From: a virus
Virus record (IMG/VR): IMGVR_UViG_3300030104_005643
Location: 1-39,976 of that record
Direction: 5' to 3' (one strand)
Length of the DNA stretch: 39,976 nucleotides
In this document: in pieces, positions 6,027 to 39,976 of the stretch
Numbering within the stretch: position 1 is the stretch's first letter
Layout of the letters: each line of letters begins with the position of its first letter
Translations under genes and position numbers: made by a program
Notes under the pieces: model-generated
Database searches by the model: none
The model's input: only the letters and a program-made list of their open reading frames with translations
What the model was told of the DNA's origin: nothing

Positions 6027-7127
6027 ATGGCTAATACCTTTATTACCCCAAGCATTGTAGCGCGTGAGGCGTTATTGATCTTGGAAAACAACTTAGTAGC
6101 GACCAACCTTTTTAACAGAGGTTATCAGGGAGAGTTTCAAGGCGCAAAAGTAGGCGACACGATAACGATTCGCGAACCTGCTTCATTTACTGCGAACGAG
6201 TTCTCGTCAACGACAAGCACTCAAAACATTACCGAAGCAAGCACGACGCTACAGCTTGAAAAACATTTCGACATTACTGTCGGTGTTACAAGCAAGCAGT
6301 TTACCTTGTCGTTGGATGATTTCCGTGGTCGTGTTATTGCACCTGCTATGGCAGGGTTGGCACAGGCTATTGATAGTTATGTGCTTGGCAAGGCTAATCA
6401 GATCGCTAATCATGTCGGCACAGCAGGTGACCCACCTGATTCGTTGGCAGATTTGGTAGCAATCGACAAGAAGCTCAACGACGAAAAAGTTCCGATGGCA
6501 GGTAGGATTGCTATTATGAACCCACAGGCCAAGGCTGACATCATGGCAAACGTCACTCAGGTGCTACAAGCCGATCAGCGTGGTGATGGTGGAGAAGCCT
6601 TGCGTCGCGCATCGCTTGGTGAGTTCTTGGGAATGGATTTTTACATGTCTCAAAACATAGCCTCTCACGACACTGATGGCCCTGCTTCATGGTTGGTCAA
6701 CAGTGGTTCCGTTGCAGTTGGCGACACTTCTGTAGCAATCGACGGTGGGTCGAACAATCCAAAACTTGGCGACATTTTCACTGTTGCAGGTGACACGACG
6801 CATTACGTCGTTACAGCCTACAGCGGAGGCACGTTATCGTTTTTACCTAAGGCTAAAGTGGCTTGGGCTGATAATTCCGCTTTGACTTTTGAAACTACTG
6901 ACCACGCGATGAACATTGCAGGTCACCCTGCAGGGTTGACTGTGGCTATTGTTCCTCTTGATCTTCCAAACGGCAACGAAACGGCTGAATATGTTGGCGA
7001 CAGGGGATTGGGTGTTCGTGTAGTTTATGATTACAACAGTTCCACAAAAACTGATACTATCAGTTTCGATGTATTATGTGGAGCCAAAGTAATCCAACCT
7101 GAACTGCTCTGCCGTGTAAAAGGGTAG
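6027..7127 (+). CDS. Major capsid protein (P22 coat-like), 366 aa
   Basis: The N terminus ANTFITPSIVAREALLILENNLVATNLFNRGY with KVGDTITIREP is the hallmark of the P22-type coat family. The HK97-fold core is interrupted by a beta-rich insertion at about residues 226-275 (GDTSVAIDGG...GDIFTVAGDTTHYVVTAY), where P22 coat carries its I-domain; here it is shorter and looks like the small beta modules also found in the tail tube and tail tip. Length is slightly less than P22 coat. A hairpin with a U-rich tail follows the stop. Confidence 0.9.
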   Translation: MANTFITPSIVAREALLILENNLVATNLFNRGYQGEFQGAKVGDTITIREPASFTANEFSSTTSTQNITEASTTLQLEKHFDITVGVTSKQFTLSLDDFRGRVIAPAMAGLAQAIDSYVLGKANQIANHVGTAGDPPDSLADLVAIDKKLNDEKVPMAGRIAIMNPQAKADIMANVTQVLQADQRGDGGEALRRASLGEFLGMDFYMSQNIASHDTDGPASWLVNSGSVAVGDTSVAIDGGSNNPKLGDIFTVAGDTTHYVVTAYSGGTLSFLPKAKVAWADNSALTFETTDHAMNIAGHPAGLTVAIVPLDLPNGNETAEYVGDRGLGVRVVYDYNSSTKTDTISFDVLCGAKVIQPELLCRVKG

Positions 7128-23498: not shown

Positions 23499-23527
23499 AT
23501 AATAAAACAAATCGAAACATAAGTCAA
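23499..23527 (-). promoter_or_regulatory. Early promoter for the 23102-23452 gene
   Basis: TTGACT (23522-23527), a 17-base spacer, TATTAT (23499-23504). A-tract upstream and leader box ACACCACA at 23472-23479, as in the other cassettes. Confidence 0.8.
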
Positions 23528-24710: not shown

Positions 24711-24738
24711 AATATATCAATACGAAACAATAAGTCAA
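24711..24738 (-). promoter_or_regulatory. Early promoter for the membrane microprotein and gam
   Basis: TTGACT (24733-24738), a 16-base spacer, TATATT (24711-24716); A-run upstream; ACACCACA box at 24683-24690. Confidence 0.82.
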
Positions 24739-26366: not shown

Positions 26367-26394
26367 AATATAACGATATGAAACAGGATGTCAA
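26367..26394 (-). promoter_or_regulatory. Early promoter for 25885-26319 and DUF932
   Basis: TTGACA (26389-26394), a 16-base spacer, TATATT (26367-26372); ACACCACA box at 26339-26346. Confidence 0.85.
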
Positions 26395-26928: not shown

Positions 26929-27224
26929 AATTCACCTCGCGCCTGTCTTGCGTAGCAGTCAAAGCAAACTCCTGTTGATGATGCAGGTCTGTTCATGCAG
27001 TATTGACTCTTGCAGTAAACCGTATAGCCTTTATTTTCTGTTGACTGTCGTTTTGTTTTAATGCGATTTTTTTCGGCATATCGTAGAAATACTTTATGAT
27101 CTACGCCAAGCGCACGCGATGCCTCTGTTGGGGTTCCGTTCTGTTTTATCAATCCAATCAAATCGTCTCTGCTTGCATTTTTTAGGAAATCAAATATTGC
27201 TTTTTTTGAGCTAATCGCTGTCAT
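26919..27224 (-). CDS. HTH protein with zinc-binding tail, 101 aa
   Basis: Residues 19-55 have a helix-turn-helix pattern (DDLIGLIKQNGTPTEASRALGVDHKVFLRYAEKN), typical of Fis- or resolvase-like HTH. The C-terminal part has Cys71, Cys76, Cys87 and Cys90 (CKSQYC and CFDC), a probable zinc site. Start at 27224 with AAGGAGAG upstream and a partly degenerate leader box. It is probably a DNA-binding regulator of the replication operon or of late transcription, but could also be a structural replication factor. Overlaps the next gene as described. Confidence 0.72.
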   Translation of the reverse strand: MTAISSKKAIFDFLKNASRDDLIGLIKQNGTPTEASRALGVDHKVFLRYAEKNRIKTKRQSTENKGYTVYCKSQYCMNRPASSTGVCFDCYARQARGELCN

Positions 27225-27897
27225 TATTTCTCTCCTTGAGGTGTTTTGGTGCAATGCCTTCTGCTAACTCCATATAGCGATTTACGTCAACCTCATGCCA
27301 ACCCTCATTACATTTTTCATTTTGTGCAATTTTAAACACTTCATTGCTGATGTTGTGCAAGCGGTTATCGTTAGATTTGAGATTGTATTTGCTCTGTATA
27401 GATCGCTTAATCCTCAAAGCGTTCTCTTGGTTTCGCCTGATTCTCTCAAGCCAAACTTTGCTCTGCTCAGGACTTGTAGACTGCTGTTGCCATGACGCGC
27501 TTTTTTTCTGTGATTCCTGTCGTTGTTGTTCCCTGTCTGCTCGCTCCTGTATTTCCCTGTGTTGCACAAAGAGACGTGTAACGGTGGGTTTTATTACACA
27601 TCGTTGACGTCCGTGTTCTATTGTTGTGTCCCGTGCGTAGCTCTTTAAGGCGTACTCGAATTTGTCTATACCAATATCTGAAACAAGGCCACCGTATGCG
27701 TGTCCGTCGTCCTCTGTGATTTCGGGCAATTGCCACATGCTCCGCAGGTATCGCATACACTCGCGAAATCGCGGAAGGTCTGCCTTTTCTACGGGAATAC
27801 GTCTGTTTGATCGGTCACCTGTTTGTTTATCCGCATTGGGACTACTCCCAATCAGGCTCGCTCCAAAAATTTTTGAGATTTCTGTCGGTTCGGTCAT
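27211..27897 (-). CDS. Candidate helicase-loader / replication protein, 228 aa
   Basis: FRECMRYLRSMWQLPEITEDDGHAYGGLVSDIGIDKFEYALKSYARDT followed by CVIKPTVTRLFVQHRE resembles the N-terminal pattern of phage replication proteins of the lambda P / loader group (a short helical domain with a final RF/RLF..P element). The second half is Gln/Arg/Ser-rich and helical. Lies directly after the candidate initiator, overlapping its gene by 56 bases, an arrangement like O and P. ATG at 27897 has GGGGG upstream. Function is inferred; it could also be an unrelated DNA-binding protein. Confidence 0.55.
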   Translation of the reverse strand: MTEPTEISKIFGASLIGSSPNADKQTGDRSNRRIPVEKADLPRFRECMRYLRSMWQLPEITEDDGHAYGGLVSDIGIDKFEYALKSYARDTTIEHGRQRCVIKPTVTRLFVQHREIQERADREQQRQESQKKSASWQQQSTSPEQSKVWLERIRRNQENALRIKRSIQSKYNLKSNDNRLHNISNEVFKIAQNEKCNEGWHEVDVNRYMELAEGIAPKHLKERNNDSD

Positions 27898-28522
27898 CTG
27901 CGTTGCCCCCTGATGTTGTGTCCCACGCCAATACGGTAGCCCAAGTTAGGTTGCCTTTGCTTGTCCGTTGCGTGAGTTGGTGTGCGCCTCGTCGAATAAT
28001 CCACATAAATGTCTGAGGCTCAGAAAAAATACGTTTTACGATATTTGCTATAGTTACGATGTTTAACTGATATTTGTAATGCAGTTCTCTAAGCGCATTG
28101 ACCTGCATTGATTCTCTTGGGTAGGTCGGGTAGGTGTTTACTAATGCGAGACTTGCCTTTTTCCATAGTTCCCAAATTAACCGAGGGTCATAATCTTCGT
28201 CAGGTTCAAAATCATCCGACGTGTCCCAATCTACAAGCTCCTGTGTGACTCGCTTACCATTTTCATATCTCACTACATTATCAGGGAGCGTATCGTCGTC
28301 AGTTGTTGGAGGGATGTATTGTATCGTTCTATTACGATTCGTTCCCTGTAGTCGTAGCTTTCCCTCGGCTTCAAATTCTTTTATGTATTTTTCTATCGTG
28401 TTTTTGCTGACGTTTACCTTATAGTGCGCTTTGAAATACTGCGCAATGTTACGTGCTGACGATTTTATTGGCGTAATTGCTACATGTGATAGATAATCTA
28501 ATAGCATCGCTTTCTTAGTCAT
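27842..28522 (-). CDS. Winged-helix protein, candidate replication initiator, 226 aa
   Basis: Residues 1-60 look like a winged helix (AMLLDYLSHVAITPIKSSARNIAQYFKAHYKVNVSKNTIEKYIKEFEAEGKLRL). An Asp/Glu-rich linker is followed by a tryptophan-containing helical domain (LIWELWKKASLALVNTYPTY, FSEPQTFMWIIRRG). Such wHTH proteins act as phage replication initiators that bind iterons and recruit the loader/helicase of the host. Starts with an ATGA overlap after the 28519 gene. Binding to the phased iterons at 30901-31032 is a testable inference. Confidence 0.55.
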   Translation of the reverse strand: MTKKAMLLDYLSHVAITPIKSSARNIAQYFKAHYKVNVSKNTIEKYIKEFEAEGKLRLQGTNRNRTIQYIPPTTDDDTLPDNVVRYENGKRVTQELVDWDTSDDFEPDEDYDPRLIWELWKKASLALVNTYPTYPRESMQVNALRELHYKYQLNIVTIANIVKRIFSEPQTFMWIIRRGAHQLTQRTSKGNLTWATVLAWDTTSGGNADDRTDRNLKNFWSEPDWE

Positions 28523-28709: not shown

Positions 28710-29408
28710 TTATTTGCCCTTCAAAATATCGTTACGTGCGTTCTCATTTGATTCGTGTTCCTTTATCGCACCGTGTAATTGTTTGCCGATAGATTTCATT
28801 TGTTTCTCATCCAAATCGTAAATAGTATTTTTTGGAATATGATTAATCCCAATAAATTCGTCCATGGTGAGATAGTGTTCAGCGAAAATTTTGTCTGCGA
28901 TATCTTTTTTTGCAGGGTCGGAAATGTGCTTTTCAACGTAGCTACGGAACTTATCCCACTGCTCTGTTGCGCGGACATTTTTCTTGTCCTTGTCGTAGAG
29001 TGCGAGGCCAAATTGATAACCGAATGTCATCATTGCGCGTTTCATTGCATCTGATTCCGCCTCTTTTATTGCACCTTCGTGTGCTTGCCCGAGGTTTTTG
29101 CCATAACCCGAGCCATATCCCCAACCCTCTCTGCGCGTAAAAGTGAGTCGGTCTTTTGATGCCCATACGGTAATACGCGACTTTGCTGAGTAGTGGACGC
29201 TATGCGTTCCACCTCGCTCCGACGAGTCGAGTAGGTTCATTAATAGTGTTTCTCGCTCCCAATTTCCGTGTCCAAATACCTGATTGAAACGATCAATGAC
29301 ATACCACGCCTCAACGTAATCAAGTTTAAAACCATTTTGATCACGCGACGCGACAAATTTATTGTCGAGGGGTTTGTTAAGTTCTGCGGTGACATCTTTG
29401 TTAAACAT
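28710..29408 (-). CDS. Rad52/22-family single-strand annealing protein, 232 aa
   Basis: Anneals complementary single strands in recombination-dependent replication or repair. The 110-140 segment HEGAIKEAESDAMKRAMMTFGYQFGLALYDK is the clearest family signature; YVEAWYVIDRFNQVFGHGNWERE near residue 31 and RREGWGYGSGYG near 92 also match. The C-terminal 80 residues are charged and more variable. It leads an operon with the wHTH and PD-(D/E)XK proteins, which together would make a recombination-replication module. Start at 29408, with AGGAG and a leader box at 29423-29430. Confidence 0.85.
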   Translation of the reverse strand: MFNKDVTAELNKPLDNKFVASRDQNGFKLDYVEAWYVIDRFNQVFGHGNWERETLLMNLLDSSERGGTHSVHYSAKSRITVWASKDRLTFTRREGWGYGSGYGKNLGQAHEGAIKEAESDAMKRAMMTFGYQFGLALYDKDKKNVRATEQWDKFRSYVEKHISDPAKKDIADKIFAEHYLTMDEFIGINHIPKNTIYDLDEKQMKSIGKQLHGAIKEHESNENARNDILKGK

Positions 29409-29446
29409 TTCTATTCTCCTGTTGTGGTGTTTTGTAAGGGTTTGCT

Positions 29447-29475
29447 AATATATCATTTCATTTTAATGAGCGCAA
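29447..29475 (-). promoter_or_regulatory. Promoter of the rad52-replication operon
   Basis: TTGCGC (29470-29475), a 17-base spacer, TATATT (29447-29452). The -35 is weaker than in the other cassettes, so this long operon may be expressed at a lower level or activated. Confidence 0.72.
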
Positions 29476-29479
29476 GCGT

Positions 29480-29890
29480 TTATTCATGTTTTAATATTTT
29501 TATTTTTTCGTCTTCCTTTTTTCGACCCCTCGTTGTCTCAATGCCTCGTAGAGTTTCGACATCTGACTCTGTGTATAAGTATACCCCGTCGGCATCTCTG
29601 CGCGTTCCGACATTTTTAATTTTACTCCAACGGTGAATCCAAACCTTACTGCGACCTATTTTTTCGCTAACCTCAAGAGCCGTATATTTTTCTCCGAGCG
29701 CGTCTTTGAGCATCGTATAAAGCTCTTTATCGTCTAATCCAAAATCGTTTTTTAATCCCAATGGGTCACCGTCTGCTATCTTGCTGAGTAGACAGAGTCG
29801 GAATCGTTTTAGGTAATCGACTTGCGACTCTTTTGTTAATTGATCTGCGGTTTTTTCCCATGCCGAGAACTCTTTAATTGTTTCGATCAT
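29480..29890 (-). CDS. MerR-like HTH DNA-binding protein, 136 aa
   Basis: Residues 69-115 form a MerR/excisionase-like winged helix (YTALEVSEKIGRSKVWIHRWSKIKNVGTRRDADGVYLYTESDVETLRG). The N-terminal 65 residues are helical with an acidic segment; the tail is Lys-rich. AGGAAAAAG is the Shine-Dalgarno. It may regulate the adjacent replication operon or act at the origin. The ATG overlaps the small upstream gene by 17 bases. Confidence 0.72.
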   Translation of the reverse strand: MIETIKEFSAWEKTADQLTKESQVDYLKRFRLCLLSKIADGDPLGLKNDFGLDDKELYTMLKDALGEKYTALEVSEKIGRSKVWIHRWSKIKNVGTRRDADGVYLYTESDVETLRGIETTRGRKKEDEKIKILKHE

Positions 29891-30050
29891 TGCTTTTTCC
29901 TTTGCTTGTTAGGTTTTGTAATTCCATTATAGCTGTGTGTTCATCTCGTTGCTGTCTCCATTCGTCATAGGCGCGGTCTTCGTCAAACTCTGCTCGCCCC
30001 TCATCGGTTGGCGGTTCGTCGTTGTTTGGTATTCTACAAATATTATCCAT
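29874..30050 (-). CDS. Small acidic protein, 58 aa
   Basis: Just too short for the usual cut-off. MDNICRIPNNDEPPTDEGRAEFDEDRAYDEW then a helical basic end. GGGGAG upstream of ATG at 30050, and overlaps with both neighbours (8 bases with the upstream gene, 17 with the HTH gene). No family known; strong Asp/Glu content in the first half. Confidence 0.65.
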   Translation of the reverse strand: MDNICRIPNNDEPPTDEGRAEFDEDRAYDEWRQQRDEHTAIMELQNLTSKGKSNDRNN

Positions 30051-30441
30051 TGTTCTCCCCTGAGTGAAGTGTGATTGTCTTTGCTATATCTATATCCGTT
30101 TCAATTGCGCTAACTGTATCATTTGCGCTTTTAACCTCTGCGGTAATGTTTTGTCGTGTTTGGGCTATCAATAAATTACTCATTGTTGTTGCGTTGATTA
30201 CGTGCTGTTTGATTTTTTTTATTGCTCTTATTTCTGCTGTTTCGTACGCAGTTTGCCGTTGGAATATTTTTCTTTCTCCGTAGTAATAGGTGCAAGGGTT
30301 AGTTTCTATTTCGTCGCTTATATAGTCAAGGTCGTCCCTCGCTCGCTCTATAGCTGTCCGCAAGTCGGATAGTATTCTCTGTGCCTGATCGTGATAGTTT
30401 TGGGTGTGTCGGATTCCGATTAGCCGAGTTTCTTTTTTCAA
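30043..30441 (-). CDS. Helical early protein, 132 aa
   Basis: Start is a TTG at 30441 with AGGAG seven bases upstream, and the standard leader box (30460-30467); the frame itself stays open for 14 more codons. Sequence is almost wholly helical (HTQNYHDQAQRILSDLRTAIERARDDLDYISDEIETN, then IRAIKKIKQHVINATTMSNLLIAQTRQNITAEVKSANDTVSAIETDIDIAKTI); coiled coil likely. I do not recognise it. First gene of a four-gene transcript ending with the HTH protein. Confidence 0.7.
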   Translation of the reverse strand: MKKETRLIGIRHTQNYHDQAQRILSDLRTAIERARDDLDYISDEIETNPCTYYYGERKIFQRQTAYETAEIRAIKKIKQHVINATTMSNLLIAQTRQNITAEVKSANDTVSAIETDIDIAKTITLHSGENNG

Positions 30442-30470
30442 TTTGCATCTCCTTGATTTTGTGGTGTAAG

Positions 30471-30510
30471 ATTGACAACACAAAATAACGAATCATTTTG
30501 CATTGTCAAT
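30471..30510. promoter_or_regulatory. Palindromic promoter region
   Basis: ATTGACAACACAAAAT (30471-30486) and ATTTTGCATTGTCAAT (30495-30510) form an inverted repeat with 14 of 16 positions paired and an 8-base centre. Each arm holds TTGACA, so the site has a -35 in both directions, with ATTTTG- or TATTTT-like -10s. It fits the promoter of the 30043-30441 transcript on the minus strand, and the symmetry suggests an operator or bidirectional promoter. Confidence 0.7.
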
Positions 30511-30521
30511 AGTTTTCTTAT

Positions 30522-30797
30522 CTATTGTTGACCTATAATTTTATGCGTGGTGATTTGCGAAAGTTCTGCTTCTTCATAGACTTCGATAATTCCTGTAACA
30601 AAATACTCCCAATTATTATCGGTTTCTATTTCGTGCATGAAAAACGTATCATGTATTTTTGCGTTGTCGCCTAATGAAATATTTTCGTACTTGAATGTTT
30701 CGTCGAACGACCCTGCAAAGCCTGTAGAGCCTTTCAGCACGTAGCGGTTTCCGCTTGCTGTTTCTTCGATAACGTATGCGGTGATGTTTTTAGACAT
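30522..30797 (-). CDS. Unknown early protein, 91 aa
   Basis: Start ATG at 30797 with AGGAG and standard leader box (30829-30836). Predicted beta-rich (ITAYVIEETASGNRYVLKGS, WEYFVTGIIEVYEEAEL). No family recognised. It is the first minus-strand gene next to the iteron region; its promoter -35 lies 30 bases from the first iteron, so iteron binding could affect it. Confidence 0.7.
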   Translation of the reverse strand: MSKNITAYVIEETASGNRYVLKGSTGFAGSFDETFKYENISLGDNAKIHDTFFMHEIETDNNWEYFVTGIIEVYEEAELSQITTHKIIGQQ

Positions 30798-30843
30798 TTT
30801 GTTTCTCCTGTAATGGTTTGTGGTGTTTTTTAACTTATTACTA

Positions 30844-30871
30844 ATATAGCGAATCGTTTTAGTTTGTCAAG
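30844..30871 (-). promoter_or_regulatory. Early promoter for the 30522-30797 gene
   Basis: TTGACA (30866-30871), a 16-base spacer, TATATT (30844-30849), with T/A runs upstream. Confidence 0.83.
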
Positions 30872-30900
30872 AACTTTTTTTATTTTTTTTATTTTTTTTA

Positions 30901-31032
30901 AGGGTCAGTTAAATTTATTAAAAACAAACAGATACGCAATAGCACAACATGTTGTAGGGTCAGTTAAACCATTGCAAGGCAATAAGTTACAATTAACACA
31001 GGGTCAGTATAGGGTCAGTATAGGGTCAGTTC
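30901..31032 (+). repeat. Five phased iterons AGGGTCAGT, candidate origin
   Basis: Copies of AGGGTCAGT followed by T or A start at 30901, 30956, 31000, 31011 and 31022, all in the same orientation. The distances are 55, 44, 11 and 11 bases, all multiples of 11. Equal face of the helix is typical of iterons that bind an initiator or a cooperative regulator. They sit in the large divergent gap, next to an AT tract (31060-31140). Confidence 0.85.
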
Positions 31033-31057
31033 GCTAAAAACAGCAAAAACGGGACAC

Positions 31058-31142
31058 AATATAATAAGGTAAATTAATAATAATAATAAATAAATAATAA
31101 TACTTAATATTAAACTTAATTATATTATTAATCACAATAAAA
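31058..31142. other. Very AT-rich tract, possible DNA unwinding element
   Basis: About 80 bases with only a few G/C (AATATAATAAGG, then repeated AAT/TAA units to ATTATTAATCAC). It directly follows the iterons. It is non-coding on both strands. The iteron-plus-AT-tract order is the classical arrangement of a replication origin. Alternatively it is just the low-complexity spacer between divergent transcripts. Confidence 0.7.
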
Positions 31143-31147
31143 AGTCC

Positions 31148-31176
31148 TTGCGTTAGTTTATCCCATCGCATAGAAT
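31148..31176 (+). promoter_or_regulatory. Promoter for the amidase-SSB operon
   Basis: TTGCGT (31148-31153), a 17-base spacer, TAGAAT (31171-31176). Transcription would yield a leader of about 150 bases with a GGTGCG/CGCACC hairpin, before the amidase start at 31336. Confidence 0.65.
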
Positions 31177-31280
31177 TAATTGAGACGGCAAATATTTTAA
31201 TTAGCTCTAACCTCTCTTAGGGTAAGGAAATATTTTGCTCCGCGCTGATTACGGTCAGCAAAGGTTGTGGTGGCCTTGGG

Positions 31281-31307
31281 CGGTGCGTATTCTCCTGATG
31301 CGCACCG
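31281..31307 (+). other. Leader hairpin before the amidase gene
   Basis: CGGTGCG pairs with CGCACCG around a 13-base loop; TCGCATTTTTA follows, which makes it look like a weak terminator/attenuator in the amidase leader. A smaller GCTGATTACGGTCAGC stem precedes at about 31244-31259. Confidence 0.55.
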
Positions 31308-31335
31308 TGTCGCATTTTTAATGGAGCAACAAGAT

Positions 31336-31908
31336 ATGAAAATTGGAATGTGCGCAGGGCATGGTAGATTAGGCGCAGAAGAGCCTCGACTTTGGGAAAT
31401 AGATAGATGTATACCTGCATTGACTCAGGCGTTTTCAATGCTAAAAACAGCAGGGATGGATGTAGTGACACCTAATCCAAGTATTTACGAACTTGACAAC
31501 GACGACGCCCTTGTAAAGAAGGTCAAATTTTTTAACGAAGAAAATTGCGACATTTCCGTCGAGATTCACATTAATGCAGGTGGAGGAAATTATTCGACTT
31601 CTCTCTTTTGGGACAAGGGCGAAAAATCGTCAGTAGCAGGTGAGGCAATGGCGAAAATAATCGAACAACAATTTGATTCAGTAACTCCTTGGCGTTCGTT
31701 AGGTGCAAAACCACAGTCGTATTTTGGCAGAGGATTGTATTTTTTAAACAAAACCAATCACCCATCTGTAATCACTGAAATTGGATTCAAGGATAATGAT
31801 GCTCACAGGGATTGGCTATTAAAGCGTTCGGGAGACGTACTGCATGGCTCGGCTATAGCACAGGCGTTAATACTGTATACGCAAAAACATTATGTCAAAG
31901 TCGGTTGA
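31336..31908 (+). CDS. N-acetylmuramoyl-L-alanine amidase (endolysin), 190 aa
   Basis: Cleaves the bond between MurNAc and L-Ala in peptidoglycan. Family Amidase_3 motifs: MCAGHGR (His9), LWEIDR (Glu21), VEIHINAGGG (His78), and VITEIGFKD (Glu148). No cell-wall-binding domain or signal peptide is seen, so a holin is needed for export. The start was placed at 31336 because GGAG lies 10 bases upstream and MKIGMCAGHG is a common start; an ATG at 31321 is possible. Unusually, it lies beside the origin and SSB, not near the holin candidate. Confidence 0.9.
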   Translation: MKIGMCAGHGRLGAEEPRLWEIDRCIPALTQAFSMLKTAGMDVVTPNPSIYELDNDDALVKKVKFFNEENCDISVEIHINAGGGNYSTSLFWDKGEKSSVAGEAMAKIIEQQFDSVTPWRSLGAKPQSYFGRGLYFLNKTNHPSVITEIGFKDNDAHRDWLLKRSGDVLHGSAIAQALILYTQKHYVKVG

Positions 31909-32380
31909 CGTCTTTGGTCAGCTAAATGTAGACAAGAGGTATTACGACACTAAATATATTCGTGACCCTCAGGCAGAGTTGTGTGTCGATATATTACGTC
32001 AGTGTATTTTTGATGCGCAGTGGTTAATTGACCTGTTGACGCAAAAAAAAATATATCGTTCGGCTAAGATGAATGATAGGATGTTGAAACTATTTAGAGC
32101 AGAAGACCCGATTGAGTTTTTGCTAAACGAAAGAAATTTTTGCTATGACTGTCTTTGGGCAGTCAGGCGGTTCGACCCTGAACCAATAATCGAATGGGCG
32201 ACGGAATTTGCCCACCACAACAACTATCACAGGAGAATAAAACAATGGCGAGGAGTATATGCACGGTGGCTCTCATTGGTCATGTCGGAGAGGACGCACA
32301 ACCGATTGGTGATAACGGAGCGCGGTTTTCGGTTGCTACCACCCAACGGGAAAAGGAGAGGCAAAGCAATGAGTGGGTAG
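31892..32380 (+). CDS. Unknown protein overlapping ssb, 162 aa (C-terminal extent uncertain)
   Basis: Starts within the amidase end (ATG at 31892) without an obvious Shine-Dalgarno. Residues 1-118 look protein-like (RDPQAELCVDILRQCIFDAQWLIDLL, IEFLLNERNFCYDCLWAVRRFDPEPIIEWATEFAH). The remaining part is read from DNA that also encodes SSB in a different frame, for 136 bases, which is unusually long for a phage overlap. Either the overlap is real, or the true stop was lost by a frameshift just before 32245. No family recognised. Confidence 0.6.
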   Translation: MSKSVDVFGQLNVDKRYYDTKYIRDPQAELCVDILRQCIFDAQWLIDLLTQKKIYRSAKMNDRMLKLFRAEDPIEFLLNERNFCYDCLWAVRRFDPEPIIEWATEFAHHNNYHRRIKQWRGVYARWLSLVMSERTHNRLVITERGFRLLPPNGKRRGKAMSG

Positions 32381-32646
32381 AAAAAACAAATTGGTGGAGC
32401 GTGACTGCATGGGGTAAACTTGCCACCGACGTCGTTTTAAAGTATTTAAAAAAGGGGGACAAGGTTTATTGTCAGGGTGATTTTGGAACGTATGAAAGCG
32501 AAGGCGGTAAACTTTACCTCAATCTAAACTGCAAGGATTTTCAGATTTTAACTGCAAAGGCTGACCGACTGCTATCACCCTCGGATGTTGCCGAGAAAAT
32601 TGATGGCGAGGTCATAAAAGGGGGTGACGATGATCTTCCGTTTTAG
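32245..32646 (+). CDS. ssb: Single-stranded DNA-binding protein, 133 aa
   Basis: OB-fold SSB: ARSICTVALIGHVGEDAQPIGDNGARFSVAT, NWWSVTAWGKLATDVVLKYLKKGDKVYCQGDF and YLNLNCKDFQIL are family signatures, and the C-terminal GGDDDLPF is the acidic DxxPF tail that recruits replication proteins. AGGAGA lies before the ATG at 32245. Supports the idea that the phage replicates with host enzymes plus own SSB. A hairpin terminator follows. Confidence 0.9.
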   Translation: MARSICTVALIGHVGEDAQPIGDNGARFSVATTQREKERQSNEWVEKTNWWSVTAWGKLATDVVLKYLKKGDKVYCQGDFGTYESEGGKLYLNLNCKDFQILTAKADRLLSPSDVAEKIDGEVIKGGDDDLPF

Positions 32647-32710: not shown

Positions 32711-32739
32711 TTGACAAGACATGTGTAACGGCATATAGT
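32711..32739 (+). promoter_or_regulatory. Promoter of the ParB-like/terminase operon
   Basis: TTGACA (32711-32716), a 17-base spacer, TATAGT (32734-32739). The predicted start point, about 32746, is only about 7 bases before the ATG at 32753, with no Shine-Dalgarno, so the first gene may have a leaderless or nearly leaderless mRNA. Confidence 0.8.
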
Positions 32740-32752
32740 GATTTGTAACAGT

Positions 32753-33475
32753 ATGAATCAAAATGCCTCTCCTACCTATGACGAATGGTTGTCTATATCT
32801 ATGGCGCGTAAAAATATCCCTGTAACCTGTGACCCTGAGGGGAGACTACAAAGAATACCCGTAAAAGATTTACAGCAGTTTCAGGGCGCATTGAAAACGC
32901 TGTATAAACCTGCTTACGAAAAACTTAAGGCTTCTTTGTTGGAGTTTGGTTTTTCAATGCCTATGTTGATTTGGCATGGACACAAAAAGATTTTAGACGG
33001 CCATCAGCGGTTACATGTTCTGCAGAAAGAAGGTTGGAACGTAACGGGTGGAGTTCCTGTGGTTTCGATAACAGGGGACAGCGAACAGGAAGTTGCAAAA
33101 AAATTACTAATCATAAGCTCTCAATATGGCAAAATCCACGAACAAGGCTTATATGAATTTACCGAATCGTTTGAAATCCCTCTCACGGAATTTAAGTTGC
33201 CCGAATTGGCTGACGTCGATTTGGACAAATACATGGAGTCGTTTTATGATGATTTCACTTTGTCTGAAGATAGTAGCCATTCTAATGTGGATAGCGAGAC
33301 GACGGAAATAGCGGAGGCTAACGGGGTTTCTCAGATTGTCCTAACATATCGTGAAGAGGAATATAACGAAATGATCGACAAAATAAATTTACTCATAGCA
33401 AATGGTAATGAGGAAAACATTGACGACCCGTCAGACTTAATTCTTGCGCTCGTTAGGCGGTCGTGTGGAAATTAA
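32753..33475 (+). CDS. ParB-like nuclease/Srx-fold protein, 240 aa
   Basis: The segment VKDLQQFQGALKTL, YEKLKASLLEFGFSMPMLIWHGHKKILDGHQRLHVLQKEGW (ILDGHQRL at 80-87) is the ParB/sulfiredoxin signature. Phages often keep such a gene before the terminase, sometimes with a DNA methyltransferase; there is none here. It may bind the packaging site or modulate packaging. The second half is divergent and acidic. The ATG at 32753 was chosen; a GTG at 32738 lies upstream of the transcription start. No Shine-Dalgarno. Confidence 0.8.
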   Translation: MNQNASPTYDEWLSISMARKNIPVTCDPEGRLQRIPVKDLQQFQGALKTLYKPAYEKLKASLLEFGFSMPMLIWHGHKKILDGHQRLHVLQKEGWNVTGGVPVVSITGDSEQEVAKKLLIISSQYGKIHEQGLYEFTESFEIPLTEFKLPELADVDLDKYMESFYDDFTLSEDSSHSNVDSETTEIAEANGVSQIVLTYREEEYNEMIDKINLLIANGNEENIDDPSDLILALVRRSCGN

Positions 33476-36479: not shown

Positions 36480-36507
36480 AATGTAACAAATCGTTTTTGT
36501 AGGTCAA
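36480..36507 (-). promoter_or_regulatory. Early promoter for the 35974-36435 gene
   Basis: TTGACC (36502-36507), 16-base spacer, TACATT (36480-36485). Degenerate at two positions relative to the other cassettes. Leader box at 36453-36460. Confidence 0.7.
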
Positions 36508-36855: not shown

Positions 36856-36883
36856 AATATAACAAATCGTTTTATAATGTCAA
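36856..36883 (-). promoter_or_regulatory. Early promoter for the 36516-36809 gene
   Basis: TTGACA (36878-36883), 16-base spacer, TATATT (36856-36861), leader box at 36829-36836. Confidence 0.84.
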
Positions 36884-37161: not shown

Positions 37162-37189
37162 AATATAGTGAATCGTTTTGAATTGTCAA
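37162..37189 (-). promoter_or_regulatory. Early promoter for the 36939-37118 gene
   Basis: TTGACA (37184-37189), 16-base spacer, TATATT (37162-37167). Confidence 0.84.
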
Positions 37190-37507: not shown

Positions 37508-37536
37508 AATATATAACGATATGTTTTAGATGTCAA
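37508..37536 (-). promoter_or_regulatory. Early promoter for the 37269-37463 gene
   Basis: TTGACA (37531-37536), 17-base spacer, TATATT (37508-37513). Confidence 0.84.
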
Positions 37537-37935: not shown

Positions 37936-37964
37936 AATATATAACAGTTCGTTTCAAATGTCAA
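37936..37964 (-). promoter_or_regulatory. Early promoter for the 37614-37892 gene
   Basis: TTGACA (37959-37964), 17-base spacer, TATATT (37936-37941). Confidence 0.84.
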
Positions 37965-38682: not shown

Positions 38683-38711
38683 AATATAAAACGAATCGAA
38701 ATTCCTGTCAA
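38683..38711 (-). promoter_or_regulatory. Early promoter for the 38303 and 37984 genes
   Basis: TTGACA (38706-38711), 17-base spacer, TATATT (38683-38688), leader box at 38657-38664. Confidence 0.84.
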
Positions 38712-38778: not shown

Positions 38779-39009
38779 TCATGCTTTACAGAATGCCTTC
38801 GCTCCCTCAAGCGTTGTTGCTGTGTGTAGAACGTGATCAACCCTGCCAAGAAACGGGATGATGTCCGCTCCTCGCTCTATCAGGTCATACTCGCCCTTCT
38901 TGCGTAGTTCAATACGATAGACAACCTTTTCGTCAACTAAGCCAACCCAAGACTTAGCTTTAGAACCGTCAAGGTTTACTATTGATTCAATCCATTCTAC
39001 TGTCTGCAT
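38779..39009 (-). CDS. Small early protein, 76 aa
   Basis: MQTVEWIESIVNLDGSKAKSWVGLVDEKVVYRIELRKKGEYDLIERGADIIPFLGRVDHVLHTATTLEGAKAFCKA: a compact alpha-beta protein, unrecognised. It has no promoter; it follows the 39061 gene after box variant (39052-39059) and hairpin (39025-39047). Confidence 0.72.
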   Translation of the reverse strand: MQTVEWIESIVNLDGSKAKSWVGLVDEKVVYRIELRKKGEYDLIERGADIIPFLGRVDHVLHTATTLEGAKAFCKA

Positions 39010-39497: not shown

Positions 39498-39526
39498 AAT
39501 ATAAAACGGATTGAAACAGTTGTCAA
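39498..39526 (-). promoter_or_regulatory. Early promoter with phased A-tracts, for the 39061 gene
   Basis: TTGACA (39521-39526), 17-base spacer, TATATT (39498-39503). Upstream (39527-39575), A-tracts of seven recur with a 10-base period. Confidence 0.85.
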
Positions 39527-39627: not shown

Positions 39628-39939
39628 TTATTTATTCAAGAGTTCTATGGCTTCGTCCATTGTCTTTAATCTTTTATCTGTAATCGCTTTCCAAGAAACT
39701 GTTCTCTTCCGTTCGGTTTCTAAGTCGTGTTGCATATCCTTTGCTCTGTTTGACCAATATAGGATGCTTTGTTCTCGCTCGTTGATATGTTCGTTCGCTT
39801 TTTTTAATTCTTCTTTTAGCTTATTGTTTTTTTTAATTTCGTCAAAAGTCTCTATCTGTTGTTCTGACATTGCTTCGAGAAGCATTTCAAATTTCTCATT
39901 GAGCCTGTCGTATTTTTCTTGTAGTGTTAGCGTTTCCAT
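39628..39939 (-). CDS. Coiled-coil early protein, 103 aa
   Basis: METLTLQEKYDRLNEKFEMLLEAMSEQQ, then KLKEELKKANEHINEREQSILYWSN, suggests a coiled coil along most of the length. Start at 39939; its Shine-Dalgarno and hairpin are in the terminal overlap, and its first codons recur at 1-20. Transcription probably comes from the 357-385 promoter across the genome closure. No family recognised. Confidence 0.73.
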   Translation of the reverse strand: METLTLQEKYDRLNEKFEMLLEAMSEQQIETFDEIKKNNKLKEELKKANEHINEREQSILYWSNRAKDMQHDLETERKRTVSWKAITDKRLKTMDEAIELLNK

Positions 39940-39976
39940 TTTGTTTCTCCTTTGGGGAGAGGCGTTTGCCTCTCCC
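39919..39976. repeat. Terminal overlap (right copy)
   Basis: Identical to bases 1-58 except one base in the loop of the hairpin (G at 39964, A at 46). Supports closing the map. Confidence 0.85.

Follow-up and report, generated by a model that had tools for sequence, protein, structure and literature searches.

The window analysed here is the full length, 39,976 bases, of IMG/VR virus record IMGVR_UViG_3300030104_005643. Its two ends (1–58 and 39919–39976) carry a common 58-nt repeat (98% identity, one mismatch), which makes it probable that the record represents a circularly assembled, almost complete phage genome. The terminal repeat includes a GAGAGGC..GCCTCTC hairpin, and a related element with this hairpin is found again at 38989 and 39547. 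Two divergent gene blocks face away from an intergenic region near 31 kb, where 30797 is the 5′ end of the nearest minus-strand ORF and the first rightward gene, an amidase (31336–31908, plus strand), begins at 31336. This start codon was picked from an ATG common to a related phage contig, L003, and the Pfam match (Amidase_3, E 5.5e-16) was obtained on the longer ORF 31267–31908. The rightward block continues with a single-stranded DNA-binding protein (SSB; 32194–32646, plus strand; Pfam SSB, E 6.1e-14), a ParB-like gene (32738–33475) and terminase. The minus-strand block encodes a Rad52-type annealing protein (28710–29408; Pfam Rad52_Rad22, E 3.5e-28), a winged-helix protein (27842–28522) and a protein earlier called loader-like (27211–27897), and a MerR-like helix-turn-helix protein is encoded at 29480–29890 (Pfam MerR_1, E 6.7e-5, with a weak RacA-type NCBIfam match). 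A first, sequence-only reading of this DNA placed the site between divergent early and late transcripts. The divergence is plain from the gene coordinates, whereas the early and late labels were conjectural, and the rightward block mixes the SSB and ParB-like genes with amidase and terminase. The same reading held that no polymerase or helicase is encoded, and Pfam indeed detects neither in the 30 of 56 tabulated ORFs that were scanned, every tabulated minus-strand ORF among them.

L003 has the same gene order and the same divergent arrangement around its counterpart of the intergenic region. Its proteins are 80% (TerL), 69% (amidase), 84% (Rad52), 72% (winged-helix protein) and 65–66% (loader-like protein) identical to those encoded in the window. 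Scans of the viral_contigs collection with Rad52, the winged-helix pair and the loader-like pair returned only the L003 contig and a 27.9-kb near-copy that is 99.9% identical to it over 6604 bp; the amidase pair returned the L003 contig only, and the winged-helix protein alone returned no relative. The genome_contigs collection likewise yielded no relative, the phages collection had no match for the winged-helix or loader-like protein, and the DNA of the repeat region matched nothing among phages and plasmids. A TerL search gave 98 relatives, of which 80 loci were kept; the nearby genes were common to L003 and L004 only. L004 is 99.6–99.8% identical to L003 and lacks the repeat region. Such copies of the L003 contig (99.6–99.9% identical) were counted as the same phage. 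Because this leaves one distinct relative, the conservation described below comes from a single pair of phages.

The intergenic region contains five exact copies of AGGGTCAGT, all on the plus strand, at 30901–30909, 30956–30964, 31000–31008, 31011–31019 and 31022–31030. Their spacings are 55, 44, 11 and 11, as the sequence-only reading had reported. The first two copies (iterons 1 and 2) are each followed by TTAAA, and the last three (iterons 3–5) form tandem 11-bp units. All five fall within 130 bp, no other exact copy occurs in the window, and they make up its strongest 9-mer cluster. Among 300 block-shuffled genomes, the largest number of copies of any 9-mer in 130 bp was three (294 genomes gave two, five gave three and one gave one); a cluster of direct repeats beyond chance is what an iteron-type theta phage origin of the lambda/SPP1 kind would possess. 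In L003 the counterparts of iterons 1 and 2 are AGGGTGAGT at 6145 and AGGGGCGGT at 6201, and iterons 3–5 are identical at 6245, 6256 and 6266, giving the same 121-bp span. Aligned pairwise, the two phages agree at 42 of the 45 iteron bases but at only 55 of the 87 spacer bases (Fisher p 9e-5); such conservation between relatives, seen on one pair, is likewise expected of an origin.

Slippage makes short tandem arrays, and L003 has another array of 11–12-bp units, of the GATACAAA type. The repeats might on these grounds be regarded as a chance or mutational product with no function, but two distant and three tandem copies that are conserved amid diverged spacers make this hardly credible. The second L003 array (L003:11683–12400) consists of degenerate units of the GATACAAA/GATGCAA type that occupy ∼700 bp separating the gene that follows terL from the ORF beyond it; it is shorter in the near-identical contig L004 and does not occur in the 39,976-bp record.

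Among the 80 TerL loci, L003 alone has more than one copy of AGGGTCAGT, and the literature matches listed for its letters all concern other subjects. Pairs of GGGTCAGT occur in at least 119 other stretches, where the inspected cases with at least three copies are coding repeats or unrelated intergenic DNA. GGGACACAATATAA is present in 100 stretches; among the loci tested, the L003 contigs alone have the arrangement of repeats plus an AT tract. Separately, in five viral contigs (L084, L093, L106, L142 and L180) intergenic copies of TAGGGTCAGTAGGGTCAG recur at 9-bp intervals, together with GACCC copies in inverted orientation. In L084 these repeats lie upstream of an ORF whose translation, read by eye, resembles a small terminase.

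The spacing of the iterons was earlier taken to mean that each copy faces the same side of the helix. This would require 11.0 bp per turn. At 10.5 bp per turn, the five iterons are turned by 171, 257, 326, 343 and 0 degrees with respect to the last one, so that just the last three are roughly in phase and iterons 1 and 2 are out of phase. Moreover, the L003 spacings are 56, 44, 11 and 10, and exact multiples of 11 are thus not kept. For both reasons we reject helical phasing, as it was stated, as evidence for an origin.

The iterons are followed by an 80-bp AT tract (31060–31139) with TAA-type triplet runs (TRF period 3 at 31075–31102), a candidate DNA unwinding element. The sequence-only reading had pointed to this tract, and by nearest-neighbour stability it proves weaker than any other 80 bp of the record: −0.913 kcal/mol per step, against a record mean of −1.346 and −1.059 for the next peak (z 5.5). 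Its counterpart is the least stable stretch of the 20.6 kb of L003. An AT-rich element directly beside the repeats is expected at an origin, but the stability measure is not specific. In a lambda control, the stretch beside the annotated ori iterons ranks only ∼40th among non-overlapping stability peaks, and a weak tract alone therefore does not mark an origin. At the near edge of the tract, L003 matches 18 of 20 bases in the block GGGACACAATATAATAAGGT (31051–31070, plus strand); the stretch immediately preceding matches at 12 of 20 positions and the AT tract at 48 of 70. This block may form the proximal boundary of the unwinding element, or it may contain a rightward −10 (TATAAT, 31060–31065). 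We also considered a DnaA-trio reading of the TAA runs and set it aside, as their orientation relative to the iterons looked wrong. A DnaA-dependent iteron origin would be expected to carry DnaA boxes; none occurs in the iteron region, and the single box-like match in the 39,976 bp is TTATACACA at 29570 on the minus strand.

The second interpretation of the conserved block leads to the main alternative, which we consider unlikely but worth weighing: an operator or activator array in which a regulator on the three tandem repeats would recruit host RNA polymerase to a rightward promoter. The TATAAT hexamer would be the −10 of the amidase–SSB transcript, with no −35, and the AT tract would be transcribed leader. 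Transcription would start near 31072, with the centre of the last repeat ∼46 bp before it. The −10-like hexamer is kept (TATAAT, TATAAA in L003) within the conserved block, is 49 bp away from iteron 4 in the window and in L003 alike and is paired with no −35-like hexamer in promoter scans; a −10 without a −35, with repeats just upstream and retained in a relative, is the layout of an activator-dependent late promoter. The rightward genes need a promoter somewhere in the region, and the poor conservation of 31141 to ∼31258 relative to L003 makes a shared one further down less likely. However, AGGGTCAGT is absent from the other rightward promoter-like sites (32711–32739 and a TTGACA near 781, before the portal gene), and L003 has none near its portal genes, so the repeats do not belong to a late activator of general use. 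Of the five, two are placed 116–171 bp upstream, near the leftward promoter, and an activator array gives no reason for the lowest DNA stability of both genomes to fall in the adjacent tract.

This leftward promoter is a strong sigma-70-like one (TTGACA-16-TATATT; 30843–30870, minus strand), with an A-tract upstream (plus-strand T run at 30875–30899), and iteron 1 lies ∼30 bp upstream of its −35. It is one of 13 leftward promoter-like cassettes on the minus strand (357–385, 23499–23527, 24711–24738, 26367–26394, 30482–30509, 30843–30870, 36480–36507, 36856–36883, 37162–37189, 37508–37536, 37936–37964, 38683–38711 and 39498–39526). The cassettes mostly consist of an A-tract, TTGACA, a TATATT-like −10, the leader word ACACCACA and a CAGGAGAAACAAAATG-like start, and the most diverged copy is at 30482–30509. 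ACACCACA is found 15 times on the minus strand and once on the plus strand, with related copies in L003, and may be a site for a regulator or an RNA–protein contact. Plasmid iteron-binding Rep proteins autoregulate, and the iterons could conceivably belong to an initiator-bound origin and at the same time regulate the two divergent promoters. The position of iteron 1 relative to the leftward −35, and of iterons 3–5 just upstream of the TATAA block, would suit such a double role. We nonetheless regard it as improbable: the leftward promoter belongs to a set of at least a dozen near-identical cassettes, and since its sisters work without iterons, special control at 30843–30870 is not needed.

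Two proteins that might act at the site belong to the minus-strand block. The winged-helix protein is 226 aa long and is our candidate initiator. The earlier description of it as a winged helix-turn-helix protein holds, on its structural model, for the N-terminus (residues 1–75); the rest of the chain is poorly modelled, with a mean pLDDT of 51 and good confidence only at about residues 1–70/75. The PDB matches of the model are generic winged helices. In a whole-length BFVD comparison, the top 50 matches include three with the label replisome organizer and one with the label replication initiator, all weak and none reaching E 0.001. Its neighbour, the product of 27211–27897, is a predicted helical protein of 228 aa from an unplaced family, and its gene overlaps that of the winged-helix protein. 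It has no family match in the libraries searched, its model is poor (mean pLDDT 53.5) and the structure matches are uninformative. The name ‘loader-like’ finds no support in any library used, and a helicase-loader role is only a guess. Aligned by hhalign as two-sequence profiles, the winged-helix protein matched lambda O (E 0.64) and its neighbour matched lambda P (E 0.1) solely over short unrelated stretches. No sequence relatives of either protein were found outside this phage group in the viral, phage and genome collections. The MerR-like product of 29480–29890 is an alternative candidate binder of the iterons.

An origin built from iterons and an unwinding element is the best single reading of 30901–31139, and we hold it somewhat probable that this region is the replication origin of the phage genome. 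The repeats cluster at one place only, with none at the other promoters, and the least stable DNA of the genome adjoins them in both phages. The conservation of the iterons over their spacers, with an unchanged 121-bp span, points in the same direction, as does a conserved adjoining module that appears, from its predicted products, to serve recombination or replication (Rad52, winged-helix protein, SSB) with no polymerase or helicase detected. The few replisome organizer and initiator labels in BFVD are weakly consistent with this assignment. The candidate replication origin of the sequence-only reading therefore keeps its unique conserved repeats, its weak DNA and its nearby module, now in two phages, but loses most of its helical-phase argument, and the conserved TATAA block also fits promoter control. 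Cumulative GC skew across the whole record simply tracks gene direction. With the analysis confined to 4-fold sites, minus-strand genes on one side of the site differ in skew from those on the other (one-sided permutation p 0.016). When the split is left unconstrained, however, the scan places its best division at 34.5 kb / 1 kb and its second best at 18.5–32 kb, and 31 kb is not singled out.

In the mechanism that we conjecture, the repeats would be occupied side by side by a phage initiator, probably the winged-helix protein of the adjoining module. Occupancy would peak on the three tandem 11-bp units, whose phases roughly agree, and the initiator would go on to melt the AT tract, beginning near 31060. 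The product of 27211–27897 or a host factor might load the host helicase, after which the host replisome would copy the genome, aided by the phage SSB and Rad52. Transcription on the flanks may make melting easier.

Iterons with an unwinding element are a well-known kind of system, and several members invite comparison. In the lambda ori (O/P), direct iterons (four are annotated in lambda) are followed by an AT-rich stretch. The two phages are further alike in having two adjacent replication genes of similar size, putative ones here, and no phage polymerase, as far as the ORFs scanned here show. Lambda iterons, however, are 18 bp long, 20–24 bp apart and inside gene O, whereas the words here are 9 bp long, 10–11 bp apart and intergenic, 2.4 kb from the candidate initiator gene, and neither protein has a relation to lambda O or P detectable by hhalign with two-sequence profiles; both points weigh somewhat against the origin reading. 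Iteron plasmids usually have 17–22-bp iterons and DnaA boxes; unlike them, the present region has no DnaA box, and no Rep_3-type protein was found by Pfam. In iteron plasmid origins (RepE, RepA and TrfA type), direct repeats adjoin an AT-rich unwinding element as they do here (PMC4081077, PMC4980987). A further likeness is to SPP1 oriL/oriR (G38P, G39P), in which direct repeats are combined with an AT-rich region as unwinding element, one origin lies inside gene 38 and the other outside, and SSB is phage-encoded (PMC6316719). The window appears to hold the same parts as the SPP1 origins. SPP1 differs in having its own DnaB-type helicase, gp40, and two origins, whereas here there is one array and no helicase was found in the scanned ORFs.

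The candidate initiator here is unplaced among such systems. Tentatively, and with considerable doubt, we suggest that the 27842–28522 initiator and its 27211–27897 partner are a so far unnamed family pair acting at the origin on 9-bp words 10–11 bp apart, packed more densely than lambda's 18–24-bp iterons, with monomers stacked as a short filament beside a triplet-rich unwinding element. If the region is an origin, this phage group, whose replication proteins have no match among the searched families, would gain a compact and testable start site, and the two products could be named as initiator and perhaps loader.

The 11-bp tandem spacing also recalls parC of plasmid R1, where centromere-like direct repeats lie ∼11 bp apart. 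A partition or DNA-anchoring site of this sort would fit with the ParB-like gene and with the MerR/RacA-like helix-turn-helix protein, but we consider it very unlikely. The ParB-like gene lies next to the terminase genes, and its highest-scoring match is a methyltransferase family. Neither ParA nor ParM, and no integrase or repressor, was seen by Pfam among the 30 of 56 ORFs scanned, and plasmid-like upkeep is accordingly not indicated.

One further element lies between the AT tract and the rightward genes. Rfam has no match within 29400–31500, this element (31259–31332) included. Conservation in L003 is strong across these ∼70 bp before the start of the amidase gene, which contain a GGTGCG...CGCACC hairpin with TTCTCCT in its loop, followed by a T run, making an attenuator or translational control element possible.
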